Below are positions 2,749 through 30,175 of a stretch of 64,000 nt of DNA, piece by piece; the stretch's first letter is position 1; each line of letters opens with the position of its first letter. Position numbers and translations under genes: made by a program. The notes beneath the pieces were generated by a model, which saw only the letters and a program-made list of their open reading frames with translations, did no database searches and had not been told where the DNA came from. Origin of the DNA: Streptomyces kanamyceticus (GTDB lineage: Bacteria > Actinomycetota > Actinomycetes > Streptomycetales > Streptomycetaceae); NCBI RefSeq assembly GCF_008704495.1, contig NZ_CP023699.1:8246001-8310000 (forward strand), read 5' to 3'.

Positions 2749-4055
2749 GGGGCGCCGTCCCCGGAATCGACCCGCAGGCCGTGCGACTGCTGCGACTGGC
2801 CCGGGTGTACGTCGGTGTCCCCGAGGCCGCGCGCGGGCCCCTGGCACCCCTGCGCCGCGGCGATACCGAGGGCCACAAGCAGCGTCACGACCACGAACAC
2901 GAAGAGCCGCTGGCGCAGCAGCCGGGGGTTGGCGGGCCCCCGCCGCCCCGTACCCGTGGTGCGCGGCCCCTGCCGCCCGGTGCCGCTGCGCGGCGGCTGC
3001 CTGTTGCCGGAGCGCGTGGTGTTCCTGGGCGCGCCGGGGCGCGATCCTGACCGCGACGCACTCGGCCGCGACGTGTGGGGCCGCGCCGAGCCGCCGGTCC
3101 GCGGCGGGGGAGTGGCGCCGGGCGCCGCACGCCGCTGGGTGCGCTGCTCCGCGTAGTCCTCGGCGAGCCGCCCCGTCGGCCGGTCGTGGTCCTGGCGCGG
3201 CGCGGGCGGCCGCACGTCGCCGAGCCCCTGGGCCTCGCGGGCGGCGATCTCCTTGAGCCTGAGCGACAGTTGGAGCGTGCTGGGCCGCTCCTCTGGGTCC
3301 TTGGCGAGACAGGCCCTGATGAGCGGGGCGAGCGCGTCCGGCACCCCGCCCAGCTGCGCCTCCTCGTGTACGACGCGGTAGAGCATGACCTCGGAACTGC
3401 CGTGCCCGAAGGGCGAGTCCGCCATGCCCGCGTACGCGAGGGTGGCCCCCAGCGCGAAGACGTCGGTGGCGGGCGTGACGGCGGCGCCGCGCACCTGTTC
3501 GGGCGCGAGGAATCCGGGCGAGCCGACGGCGGTACCGACGTGGGTGAGCGTCGAGGCGCCCGTGGCCCAGGCGATGCCGAAGTCAATGATCCGCGGCCCC
3601 TTGGGGGACAGCAGGATGTTCGACGGCTTCAGATCCCGGTGGACGACACCGGCCTCGTGCACGGCCACGAGCCCCTCGGCGAGCGCGGAACCCACCACGG
3701 CCACGTCGGCGGCCGAGAGCGGGCCCTCGGCGGCGACCTTGTCGTGCAGCGAGGGCCCGGGAACGTACTGGGTGGCGAACCACGGCCGGTCGGCGTCGAG
3801 ATCGGCGGCGACGAGCCGCGCGGTGCAGCCGCCCCTGATGCGGCGGGCGGCCGAGACCTCCCGCGCGAACCGCGACCGGAACTCCTGATCCTCCGCCAGA
3901 TCGGGCCGGATCACCTTCAGGGCGACGCGCTGCCCCCGCCGGTCCGACCCCAGATAGACAACCCCCATGCCGCCGGCGCCCAGGCGCCTGTGCAGCCTGA
4001 ACGAGCCGACGACACGCGGGTCCTCGCGCCGGAGCCGCATCATCGCCATGTCCAT
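2739..4055 (-). CDS. Membrane-anchored serine/threonine protein kinase (Hanks type)
   Basis: A eukaryotic-like kinase domain fills the first ~270 residues: glycine loop GAGGMGVVYLG near 25-35, the ATP lysine in VALKVI near 47, catalytic loop HRDLKPSN near 137-144, and the DFG of IIDFGIAW near 157. A long linker rich in Pro, Arg, Ser and Gly follows, then one transmembrane helix (FVFVVVTLLVALGIAAA) and a ~40-residue C-terminal tail, presumably extracellular. No PASTA or other known sensor repeats are seen. The start is uncertain: GTG at 4085, ATG at 4055 or ATG at 4049 are all possible and none has a strong ribosome site. Its substrate is unknown. Confidence 0.88.
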   Translation of the reverse strand: MDMAMMRLRREDPRVVGSFRLHRRLGAGGMGVVYLGSDRRGQRVALKVIRPDLAEDQEFRSRFAREVSAARRIRGGCTARLVAADLDADRPWFATQYVPGPSLHDKVAAEGPLSAADVAVVGSALAEGLVAVHEAGVVHRDLKPSNILLSPKGPRIIDFGIAWATGASTLTHVGTAVGSPGFLAPEQVRGAAVTPATDVFALGATLAYAGMADSPFGHGSSEVMLYRVVHEEAQLGGVPDALAPLIRACLAKDPEERPSTLQLSLRLKEIAAREAQGLGDVRPPAPRQDHDRPTGRLAEDYAEQRTQRRAAPGATPPPRTGGSARPHTSRPSASRSGSRPGAPRNTTRSGNRQPPRSGTGRQGPRTTGTGRRGPANPRLLRQRLFVFVVVTLLVALGIAAAQGCQGPARGLGDTDVHPGQSQQSHGLRVDSGDGAPQS

Positions 4056-4718: not shown

Positions 4719-4922
4719 ATGGCGGACACGGCACCGCGGACGATGCTCCGCACGCAAGGGCGCAGGTTCTCGGCGTTCGGCGTCCGCCCGTCCGGCACGC
4801 GCCACCCCTTGGTGGCGACGGCCATGGTCCTTCCCCTGGCAGCCCTGCTCGTAGTCGTCTTCGGCGGCTGGGAAGCAGTGGTCACACAAGCGTCGTCCGT
4901 GGGCGTGATGCTAGGGCGCTGA
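4719..4922 (+). CDS. Small membrane protein (67 aa)
   Basis: This short frame is chosen at ATG 4719 because GGAGAGG lies just upstream; the frame stays open further 5' but without another good start. The product has a basic, disordered N-terminus of ~28 residues and one hydrophobic helix (LVATAMVLPLAALLVVVFGGW). A single-span inner-membrane protein is likely; its role is unknown. It lies alone between the 88-residue hypothetical gene and the terminator at 5010-5041. Confidence 0.6.
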   Translation: MADTAPRTMLRTQGRRFSAFGVRPSGTRHPLVATAMVLPLAALLVVVFGGWEAVVTQASSVGVMLGR

Positions 4923-5009
4923 GCGGCGCCCCAGGCCCGGAAGAGCGGTCCGGGCGGGGACATCCGGCCATGAAACCCCGTGGGGACGGGGGTGCGGCGG
5001 ACGGCACGA

Positions 5010-5047
5010 CAACCCGCGCAGCTGGGGAGCTGCGCGGGTTGTTTCTT
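5010..5047 (+). terminator. Rho-independent terminator
   Basis: Bases 5010-5023 pair perfectly with 5028-5041 (14-bp stem, GGGG loop) and are followed by TTTCTTTT. It ends transcription of the 67-residue membrane protein gene. Confidence 0.88.
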
Positions 5048-5105
5048 TTCCCCACGGGCTCCGTGCCTGCCCGCCTGTATCTCCGCGACGGACCGTCCCT
5101 GTAGG

Positions 5106-5248
5106 AGCAACCCGCCTCGGCTTCGGCTGTGGGGCGGGGCCGCGGCGGTATGTCCGTCCTCGCCGTCCCAGGCGCACCGCCACACTTCGGGCACCTCGGA
5201 ACGAGGCCCCCAGTGCTCCGGGCGAACATACCGCCACGTCCCCTCGGG
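5106..5248 (+). repeat. Copy A of an inverted hairpin element
   Basis: This arm is, as its reverse complement, an imperfect copy of 5546-5692. It carries its own internal stem: GGCGGTATGT at 5144-5153 pairs with ACATACCGCC at 5226-5235. The flanks beyond the stem (GCGGCCCCGCCCC and ACGTCCCCTCGGG in one or other orientation) are shared by both copies. Confidence 0.8.
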
Positions 5249-5294
5249 CCGGATGGCGACTGCGGGCCGCTGCCGCCCCCGCCCCCGCCTCCCT

Positions 5295-5400
5295 CTGTGG
5301 GCGACCGCGCGCCGGTGGGCTACCGCTGTGGGCGACCGCGCCGATGGGCCGGACCCGGTGGGCAGGGCCGCTCCCGCTGTGGGCAATCGTGCCGCTGGGC
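5295..5400 (+). repeat. Three short CTGTGGGC-led repeats
   Basis: Three copies of a ~25-base motif occur at 5295-5320, 5326-5349 and 5377-5400. Each starts CTGTGGGC, continues with an (A/G)A(C/T)CG core and ends in a G-rich (A/C/G)TGGGC. Function unknown; likely an intergenic repeat. Confidence 0.6.
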
Positions 5401-5410
5401 GAGTGGGGTC

Positions 5411-5443
5411 TCCCCTGCTCGAGCGAAGCCGAGAGCTTGGGGA
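5411..5443 (+). repeat. Interspersed GCTCGAGC hairpin repeat, copy 1
   Basis: The block TCCCCTGCTCGAGC followed by GAGAGCTTGGGGA forms an imperfect hairpin. The same block recurs at 25008-25040 and, slightly changed, at 25076-25107. Streptomyces chromosomes carry many intergenic copies of this type. Confidence 0.75.
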
Positions 5444-5545
5444 AGGGTGGGCACAGTCCCCGTCGCCGAGGAGCGAGGACGGGGGCGCAGGCCACGGCGC
5501 GGGTGTGGGTGGGGACACCCCCACCGGCCCGCAGCCGCCCGCGCT

Positions 5546-5692
5546 CCCGAGGGGACGTGGGGGTATGTGCGAACGGAGCACAGTGGAGACCGGGGCACGG
5601 AAGCAAGCCCAGTAGCCCCCGCCCCGGGATGGCGAGTACGCACATACCCCCGCGGCCCCGCCCCCAAGACGAACCCAAGGCGACACCAGCCC
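5546..5692 (-). repeat. Copy B of the inverted hairpin element
   Basis: This is the inverted partner of 5106-5248. Its internal stem is GGGGGTATGTGCG at 5559-5571 with CGCACATACCCCC at 5639-5651, 13 bp perfect. Compared with copy A, a C-G pair is changed to G-C on both sides of the stem, so base pairing is kept. Confidence 0.8.
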
Positions 5693-5754
5693 AGAGGAAC
5701 CCGCTGCGTACGCTCACTCAAAGCACCCGACACCGCACCACCCCCGGGGGACCA

Positions 5755-6732
5755 GTGACCGCCGCCTTCCTGCCCGCCCTGACCGCGAAGGCCAGCGCCG
5801 CCGCCCACCCCAACCCCCACCCCAACCCCCGCCCCGATACCCCGTGCGACTGCGCAACCCCCGTACTCACAGCCCGCCCCGACGCCACAGTCATCCGCCA
5901 CGGCACCATCGTCGCCAAGGCGCACGCCCCGGACACACCCCCCACGGACCTGACCGCACGCCTGCAGACCGCAGCCCACCCCACACTCGCCACCACCCTG
6001 CTCCCCCCACTGCACCTGACGCCCACCGAACTGCAAGGCCGCCCCGTCACCCTCTGGCCCTACGGCACCCCCGTCGACCGAGACGACCCCGACGCGGCCC
6101 CTTGGGAAGCGGCTGCCACCCTCCTGGCCCGCCTGCACACCGTGCCGCCCCCGACCACGCTGCCCCACCCGCTCCCGCCCATGCGAGGCCCCGCCAAGGC
6201 CGCCCACGCCGTGGCCAGGCTGCACGCGGCAGGCCCGCACCCCGCCGCACCCCCGGTACTGCGCGCCTGGGCGGCGCTCCCGCCGTGGGCCCGCGCCGAG
6301 ACCCCGCCCCCAGGCCCCCACCTCCTGTGCCACGGCGACTTCCACCTCGGCCAGCTGGTCCGGACCCCGGAGGGCCACTGGCGCCTGATCGACGTGGACG
6401 ACCTGGGCACCGGCAACCCCGCGTGGGACCTGGCCAGACCCGCCGCCTGGTACGCCTGCGGCCTGCTCGCCCCCGACGAGTGGACGCGCTTCCTGGACAC
6501 CTACCGAGGGGCGGGCGGCGCCGCGGTCCCCGCCGACGGCGCCGACCCCTGGCCCGCGCTCGACGTCCCGGCCCGCGCCCTCACCGTGCAGACCGCGGCC
6601 CTGGCGATCACCAAGTCCGTCGCGGCCGACCGCCCCCTGGACGAGATCGAGCAGGCTCTGGTCGACGCCTGCGACCGGATGTCCCGAATGCCGCCTCGCC
6701 CGGCGGAGTTGGCGCCCGAGACCACGAAGTAG
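5755..6732 (+). CDS. Aminoglycoside phosphotransferase (APH)-family small-molecule kinase
   Basis: The 325-residue protein has the protein-kinase-like fold of the APH/choline kinase family. The catalytic loop is LLCHGDFHLGQLV, matching the HGDxHxxN/Q Brenner motif, and the metal-binding motif is the aspartate in LIDVDDLGTGNPAWDLA. The substrate cannot be inferred; no resistance gene context is present, so a metabolic sugar, choline or amino-sugar kinase is as likely as antibiotic modification. The N-terminus is Pro/Thr/Ala rich. GTG 5755 is chosen because GGGGGA precedes it; ATG 5629 lies inside the upstream repeat element and is unlikely. A zinc-ribbon gene follows after 69 bp. Confidence 0.8.
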   Translation: MTAAFLPALTAKASAAAHPNPHPNPRPDTPCDCATPVLTARPDATVIRHGTIVAKAHAPDTPPTDLTARLQTAAHPTLATTLLPPLHLTPTELQGRPVTLWPYGTPVDRDDPDAAPWEAAATLLARLHTVPPPTTLPHPLPPMRGPAKAAHAVARLHAAGPHPAAPPVLRAWAALPPWARAETPPPGPHLLCHGDFHLGQLVRTPEGHWRLIDVDDLGTGNPAWDLARPAAWYACGLLAPDEWTRFLDTYRGAGGAAVPADGADPWPALDVPARALTVQTAALAITKSVAADRPLDEIEQALVDACDRMSRMPPRPAELAPETTK

Positions 6733-25007: not shown

Positions 25008-25040
25008 TCCCCTGCTCGAGCGAAGCCGAGAGCTTGGGGA
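25008..25040 (+). repeat. Interspersed GCTCGAGC hairpin repeat, copy 2
   Basis: This block is identical to 5411-5443 over the TCCCCTGCTCGAGC ... GAGAGCTTGGGGA sequence, and lies inside the MITE-like element. Confidence 0.75.
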
Positions 25041-25075: not shown

Positions 25076-25107
25076 TCCCTGCTCGAGCGGAGCCGAGAGC
25101 TTGGGGG
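25076..25107 (+). repeat. Interspersed GCTCGAGC hairpin repeat, copy 3
   Basis: This copy differs from the others by one base in the loop (GGAGCC for GAAGCC) and by a shifted C/G run on each flank. It lies inside the MITE-like element. Confidence 0.7.
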
Positions 25108-30109: not shown

Positions 30110-30132
30110 TCGACGGTCATCGGTGAGGTACC

Positions 30133-30166
30133 GGGGACGGTGGGGTGCGCGCACCCCACCGTCCCC
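30133..30166. terminator. Bidirectional palindromic terminator
   Basis: The 34 bases form a perfect palindrome of two 17-bp halves with no spacer, centred at 30149/30150. It lies between the convergent protease and membrane-protein genes. Confidence 0.8.
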
Positions 30167-30175
30167 TCCTGCCCC

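Follow-up and report, generated by a model that had tools for sequence, protein, structure and literature searches.

Two hairpins that face each other between an intrinsic terminator and an APH phosphotransferase family gene in Streptomyces kanamyceticus differ by paired changes in their stems, which raises the question of what these elements are and why both arms of a stem change together. The original prediction, made for the 64,000-nt stretch of DNA analysed here (the window), described them as inverted copies, A and B, of an element of about 92 bp. When the sequence was re-read, the arms of A on the forward strand (5144-5153, GGCGGTATGT; 5226-5235, ACATACCGCC) and those of B on the reverse strand (5559-5571, GGGGGTATGTGCG; 5639-5651, CGCACATACCCCC) were found at the predicted positions with the predicted letters. 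An inverted-repeat scan recovered both hairpins together with the mirror arms between A and B (80% and 83%), bearing out their opposed orientation. The replacement of the C-G pair of A by G-C in B is genuine, and a second swap is present just after GTATGT (C in A and G in B), at a position that is an unpaired C.A in the window's A copy. The predicted length proved too short: the common unit is about 128 bp plus 20-30 nt of flank on either side, and the flanks are indeed common to the copies.

Covariance model R2, which was built from 33 diverse sequences that include the window's A and B as training sequences, matched element A at 5124-5251 on the forward strand (subfamily with stem GGCGGTATGTCCG; E 8.6e-16) and element B at 5543-5671 on the reverse strand (subfamily with stem GGGGGTATGTGCG; E 2.9e-16). 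The stem of A is enclosed by a left frame, GGGGCCG (5136-5142), and a right frame, ACGTCCCC (5236-5243), which pair with one mismatch. A and B form one composite with other repeats sitting between the hairpins, and the whole unit is a mosaic of repeats bounded by the terminator of the upstream gene (5008-5043, forward strand), which belongs to the context and not to the repeat, and the downstream APH-family gene (5755-6732, Pfam PF01636). An upstream repeat module, CCTGTATCTCCGCGACGGACC...CCTGTAGGAGCAACC (5070-5112, forward strand), also accompanies other A copies. A short hairpin with frame-like letters elsewhere in the window (30121-30174) has a weak model score (E 3e-4) and is probably an ordinary hairpin.

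A second hairpin repeat, GTGGGCA...GGTGGGCACA, is present in degenerate copies between A and B, where a CTCGAG palindrome breaks it up; in the window this repeat runs from GCTGTGGGCA to GGGTGGGCACAG with the palindrome inside (5376-5456, forward strand). It belongs to a dispersed family of its own, GTGGGCA-N3-GT(T/C/G)CCGC...GCGG(A/G/C)AC-GGGTGGGCACA, whose stems are also changed on both sides, and which matched 17 of the 20 genomes searched, with 36 matches in the S. kanamyceticus genome, a few of them nested. Three places in the window (5415-5442, 25012-25039 and 25079-25106) hold the CTCGAG palindrome repeat, in perfect form or with a single mismatch. When a 601-bp query from the window was used, 27 of 41 genomes, including its own, gave some match, most of the matches listed for other Streptomyces coming from the part that contains the second repeat and the palindrome.

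A and B represent two subfamilies within a single non-coding, many-copy hairpin repeat of about 128 bp. The original prediction had staked its case on the existence of further copies, and many were found. The S. kanamyceticus genome (10.13 Mb) has 38 instances of the pattern GTATGT-N55..85-ACATAC, versus none for a reversed-pattern control, and all 38 also carry the inner motif GTATGT.CG..CTCGCC; they comprise 24 A copies (one of which, at 6382554, is a loop variant) and 14 B copies. Two additional copies in this genome have another stem and are regarded as variants. The frame pattern alone yielded 40 matches (control, 0), which on reading consist of 37 A/B copies, the two variants and one chance match in coding DNA. 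A gene predictor made for this analysis put 36 of 40 copies outside genes; the four that overlap genes are both variants and the B copies at 3032 and 4388 kb, and the open reading frames called there are judged doubtful. All 10 close A/B pairs converge with their ACGTCCCC ends inward, as deduced from positions and strands. The head-to-head composite in the window measures about 480-600 bp, and two composites of the genome are 99.2% identical across 473 nt. The 30 sites extend over 62% of the chromosome, with both ends clear of copies (P 1e-5 in a range test that was picked after the positions were known). An autonomous parent transposon was considered between two A copies that face each other at 4602819 and 4605732 but is not supported, as the open reading frames that were read in loci L014 and L015 look ordinary.

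The family is present in part of the genus. Covariance model R1, which was trained on copies from S. kanamyceticus, S. atriruber and S. silaceus and applied with strict filters and 11 candidates scored per genome, detected it in 30 of 295 sampled Streptomyces genomes, S. kanamyceticus included. Named GTDB species genomes, a collection that may omit the window's own genome, were scanned for the exact pattern and yielded eight stretches (four from S. atriruber, two from S. silaceus, and two from unrelated bacteria that lack the frame). Matches to the frame pattern were found in 33 of 61 genomes, many being single chance matches in coding DNA as read; at least five were counted, a few of them by chance, in G000 (40), G007 (17), G042 (17), G065 (12), G009 (9) and G001 (5). 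Stem and loop are mostly peculiar to each carrier genome. The arrangement can differ as well: genome G179 (loci L287, L288 and L289) has direct tandem arrays of two or three hairpins about 220 nt apart, in contrast to the converging pairs of S. kanamyceticus. Spread via plasmids or phages is unsupported, since no family match was obtained in either at E 1e-5. One IMG/VR viral contig (L299) fits the hairpin pattern of the G042 type and is possibly host DNA at a prophage edge.

The stems vary between species, and their two arms change together. A structure-blind MAFFT alignment of 33 sequences gave 23 pairs in RNAalifold, 11 of which are changed on both sides, and 95.8% of cells were paired. The covariation score of 0.336 exceeded that of shuffles (0.119; reached by 0 of 500) and of slid partners (at most 0.071), a comparison that a structure taken from the same alignment tends to win; for further pair types, the shuffles were not exceeded (129 of 500 reached the observed value). 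A wider comparison used 79 of 88 matches, after leaving out three same-sequence repeats, three opposite-strand matches, two further L108 matches and one loopless match, and then 77 elements, after skipping two without a frame; several misplaced anchors were retained and affect the arm-match, wobble, strand-folding and frame-mismatch counts. Among the 43 distinct stems, 12.84 of 16 positions match between left and right arms (permuted mean, 9.56; maximum, 10.42; 0 of 1,000); like the covariation score, this statistic ignores the relatedness of the sequences. The compensatory nature of the stem changes, on which the original prediction also depended, therefore extends over 33 sequences and 43 distinct stems. 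Its proposal of selection on a folded RNA or DNA cruciform rather than on the primary sequence fared less evenly: the stems covary, but the letters themselves are conserved as well, in the near-constant outer frame GGGGCCG...ACGTCCCC and in inner motifs such as CGTCCTCG, while the inner stem varies between species yet pairs.

Comparison of orthologous sites revealed that copies have been gained or lost between species, the presence/absence behaviour expected of a miniature inverted-repeat transposable element. The gene downstream of the window's composite was matched at E 1e-100 in most of the genus (307 of 392 genomes), and R2 found no element at any of 29 loci from the nearest relatives in the sample; in 10 of 11 element-free relatives compared, homology spans the upstream gene to about the terminator. 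Among 17 more distant loci of the downstream gene, four (G007, G042, G269 and G233) have an element in the stretch that follows the terminator; two of these, G007 and G042, had been chosen because an earlier search showed an element there. At site 5629, R2 detected an element in none of 11 relatives, with both flanks found in 10, and at site 7514 in one of 11 (G296, in the same orientation), with both flanks found in six and five surely empty. Target duplication is unreadable because the intergenic DNA is too diverged at element-free intervals. A conserved palindromic motif, GCAAGCACGCTTGC, adjoins the site-5629 composite (L028, about 1916-1950, and orthologues); it is present in element-free relatives too and resembles a regulator site.

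Many intervals are nevertheless shared. Of 52 element loci in seven other genomes (three loci without a regular-expression element being kept in the denominator), 23 shared flanking DNA or genes with element loci of S. kanamyceticus, 13 on both sides, as read from the coordinates, and 10 on one side only. The corresponding figure for controls was 1 of 57 (0/28, 1/22 and 0/7; Fisher P 3e-8), a contrast that is imperfectly matched because the controls were mostly drawn from genomes other than those tested, some of them more distant; for element loci from more distant genomes it was 0 of 25. Protein clusters also tie L097 and L100 of more distant genomes to S. kanamyceticus loci. A recurrent neighbour gene was sought and rejected, the largest cluster being the element itself and the others seeming to be the same or related intervals across genomes. 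Of the 17 rows that could be scored, 16 have kept the orientation, equivalent to 11 of 12 distinct S. kanamyceticus sites (P 0.003); these rows are sites with one element, and the other six shared loci are at A/B pair sites and unscorable. Core identity is 0.78-0.97 within a species or S. kanamyceticus subfamily (0.81 for A and B together), versus an average of 0.75 between species in shared intervals (20 of the 23 loci; L265, L082 and L083 omitted) and about 0.55 for the DNA lying 60-150 nt outside. Two copies of the same species thus usually resemble each other more closely than do copies of different species at shared intervals, and the copies appear to evolve in concert; G263 is an exception (0.780 within the species and 0.782 to S. 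kanamyceticus copies in shared intervals). The copies may be old residents evolving in concert or may have arrived repeatedly in the same intervals, and the kept orientation favours old residents.

Covariation alone is no proof of selection for folding, because element-by-element overwriting can also give paired changes. It is possible, though we consider it doubtful, that the covariation arose with no selection at all, by quasi-palindrome correction or by gene conversion between elements that copies changes into both arms. The greater likeness of most within-species copies is what such a process would leave, and most G179 copies carry a one-sided change (GTCCG versus GTGCG). Arm-to-arm correction, however, is expected to erase mismatches, whereas one frame position is mismatched in 72 of 77 elements (C.T in 67, T.T in 3 and C.A in 2) and paired in five, with a few anchors misplaced. 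Conversion between elements, for its part, accounts for the spread but not for the origin of new paired stems.

If the copies were instead transcribed as cis elements or small RNAs, the compensatory changes would reflect selection on an RNA fold, as strong covariation and the location of many copies downstream of a gene would suggest. Short abundant transcripts, some at palindromes, are among those described for S. coelicolor and E. coli (PMC4681348). At least one strand of each hairpin folds well (z-scores for the two strands as RNA, -1.9 and -4.0 for A and -4.2 and -1.9 for B; as DNA, -0.6 and -3.5 for A and -3.9 and -1.0 for B), but the hint of strand bias from A and B vanished over 77 elements, in which the better fold was on one strand in 38 and on the other in 37, with two even. 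Wobble-type mismatches were similarly divided (31 on one strand and 42 on the other in the 43 distinct stems, one of 44 having been set aside). Therefore, a role as a one-strand RNA is not favoured. In addition, the elements are oriented either way relative to genes, and no Rfam family was found at the hairpins even at a relaxed E-value: tRNAs were the sole matches above the gathering score in the window, and relaxing it added just weak sub-threshold matches. A structured RNA is an unlikely explanation.

Maintenance by the host as a bidirectional transcription terminator or a stabiliser of mRNA 3' ends is a little less likely still. The neighbouring genes, as read, are convergent at nine, tandem at 15 and divergent at four of 28 A/B sites (with 3032 and 4388 uncertain), and different species often have the same flanking genes and orientation, as a terminator or stabiliser would lead one to expect. 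However, neither A nor B is followed in the window by a T tract like that of a terminator, and the upstream gene has a separate intrinsic terminator, where relatives with and without the element keep a similar hairpin. A scan of 4900-5800 for a GC stem with a T tract, restricted to loops of 3-8, found that 5008-5043 alone qualifies.

BIMEs are mosaics with other repeats, and the unit described here is likewise a mosaic. REPINs consist of two inverted arms and a variable spacer, an arrangement similar to the present one. Like REP elements and BIMEs, the present repeats are extragenic, many-copy and palindromic and form head-to-head dimers, including heterodimers with different stems of the kind described for REP (PMC3733652). 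Unlike them, the matched unit spans 128-129 bp as against 20-40 bp for REP, and the S. kanamyceticus genome has no Y1 transposase. REP elements bear an unpaired GTAG or CGTC tag at one end; the right frame here holds ACGTCCCC, in which the CG and the final C pair with the left frame. Neither 'Actinobacteria' nor 'Streptomyces' occurs in the main text of that 2013 REP survey (PMC3733652). The ERIC (IRU, RU-1) sequences of enterobacteria are described as small mobile intergenic repeats of 127 bp (PMC2229807) and are comparable in length and extragenic habit; they differ in taxon, and the present repeats have covarying, species-variable inner stems and two subfamilies paired in one composite. The BOX, RUP and SPRITE repeats of the pneumococcus, small interspersed structured sequences that are gained slowly and thought to be parasitic (PMC3049150), are similar in general character but belong to another genus. 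REPINs have been described as miniature mobile DNA (PMC3116915), and the present elements share with them an extragenic location, looped inverted arms and head-to-head pairs, but mobilisation by a Y1 (RAYT) transposase is very improbable and was rejected, as PF01797 was matched in only two (G177 and G300) of 11 genomes searched and neither in S. kanamyceticus nor in eight further carriers. By eye, the arms also differ from those of REPINs in not being consistently hairpins by themselves. Since the size of REP and the association with RAYT both fail here, we class the family among the extragenic palindromic repeats but not as REP, REPIN or ERIC, the last of which was compared by length and habit.

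We therefore favour, with a probability of about two in three, the explanation that A and B are two subfamilies of an interspersed, extragenic, imperfectly palindromic DNA repeat that resides in part of Streptomyces, resembles REP and ERIC, and is spread and homogenised by a putative machinery. According to this explanation, the hairpin would arise in single-stranded DNA, in a cruciform, or in RNA from untranslated regions, and the folded form may be what a putative enzyme or recombination route recognises. A putative copying route would insert elements into new intervals and overwrite old copies, and such overwriting would make both stem arms change together throughout a genome. Any benefit to the host, such as 3' end stability or a transcription boundary, is unproven and would be secondary. 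Several points weigh against this explanation: the mobilising gene was not found, and the shared intervals and kept orientation fit a conserved host function as well. The unreadable target duplication, the one-sided matches at 10 of the 23 shared loci, the imperfectly matched controls and the exception of G263 count against it too. A bolder version, which we consider improbable, would have a self-overwriting palindrome occupy long-lived intergenic addresses that are rewritten genome-wide, both arms at once, to a species-specific form by a dedicated non-Y1 copying system, which would take the mismatched frame GGGGCCG/ACGTCCCC as its recognition signal and home in on copies already present.

We found no description of such a family for Streptomyces in the open-licence PMC papers searched, and our results would add a sizeable family of interspersed hairpins to this genus. 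Its covarying, species-specific stems in shared intervals provide a natural experiment on the concerted evolution of dispersed palindromes that have no known transposase.
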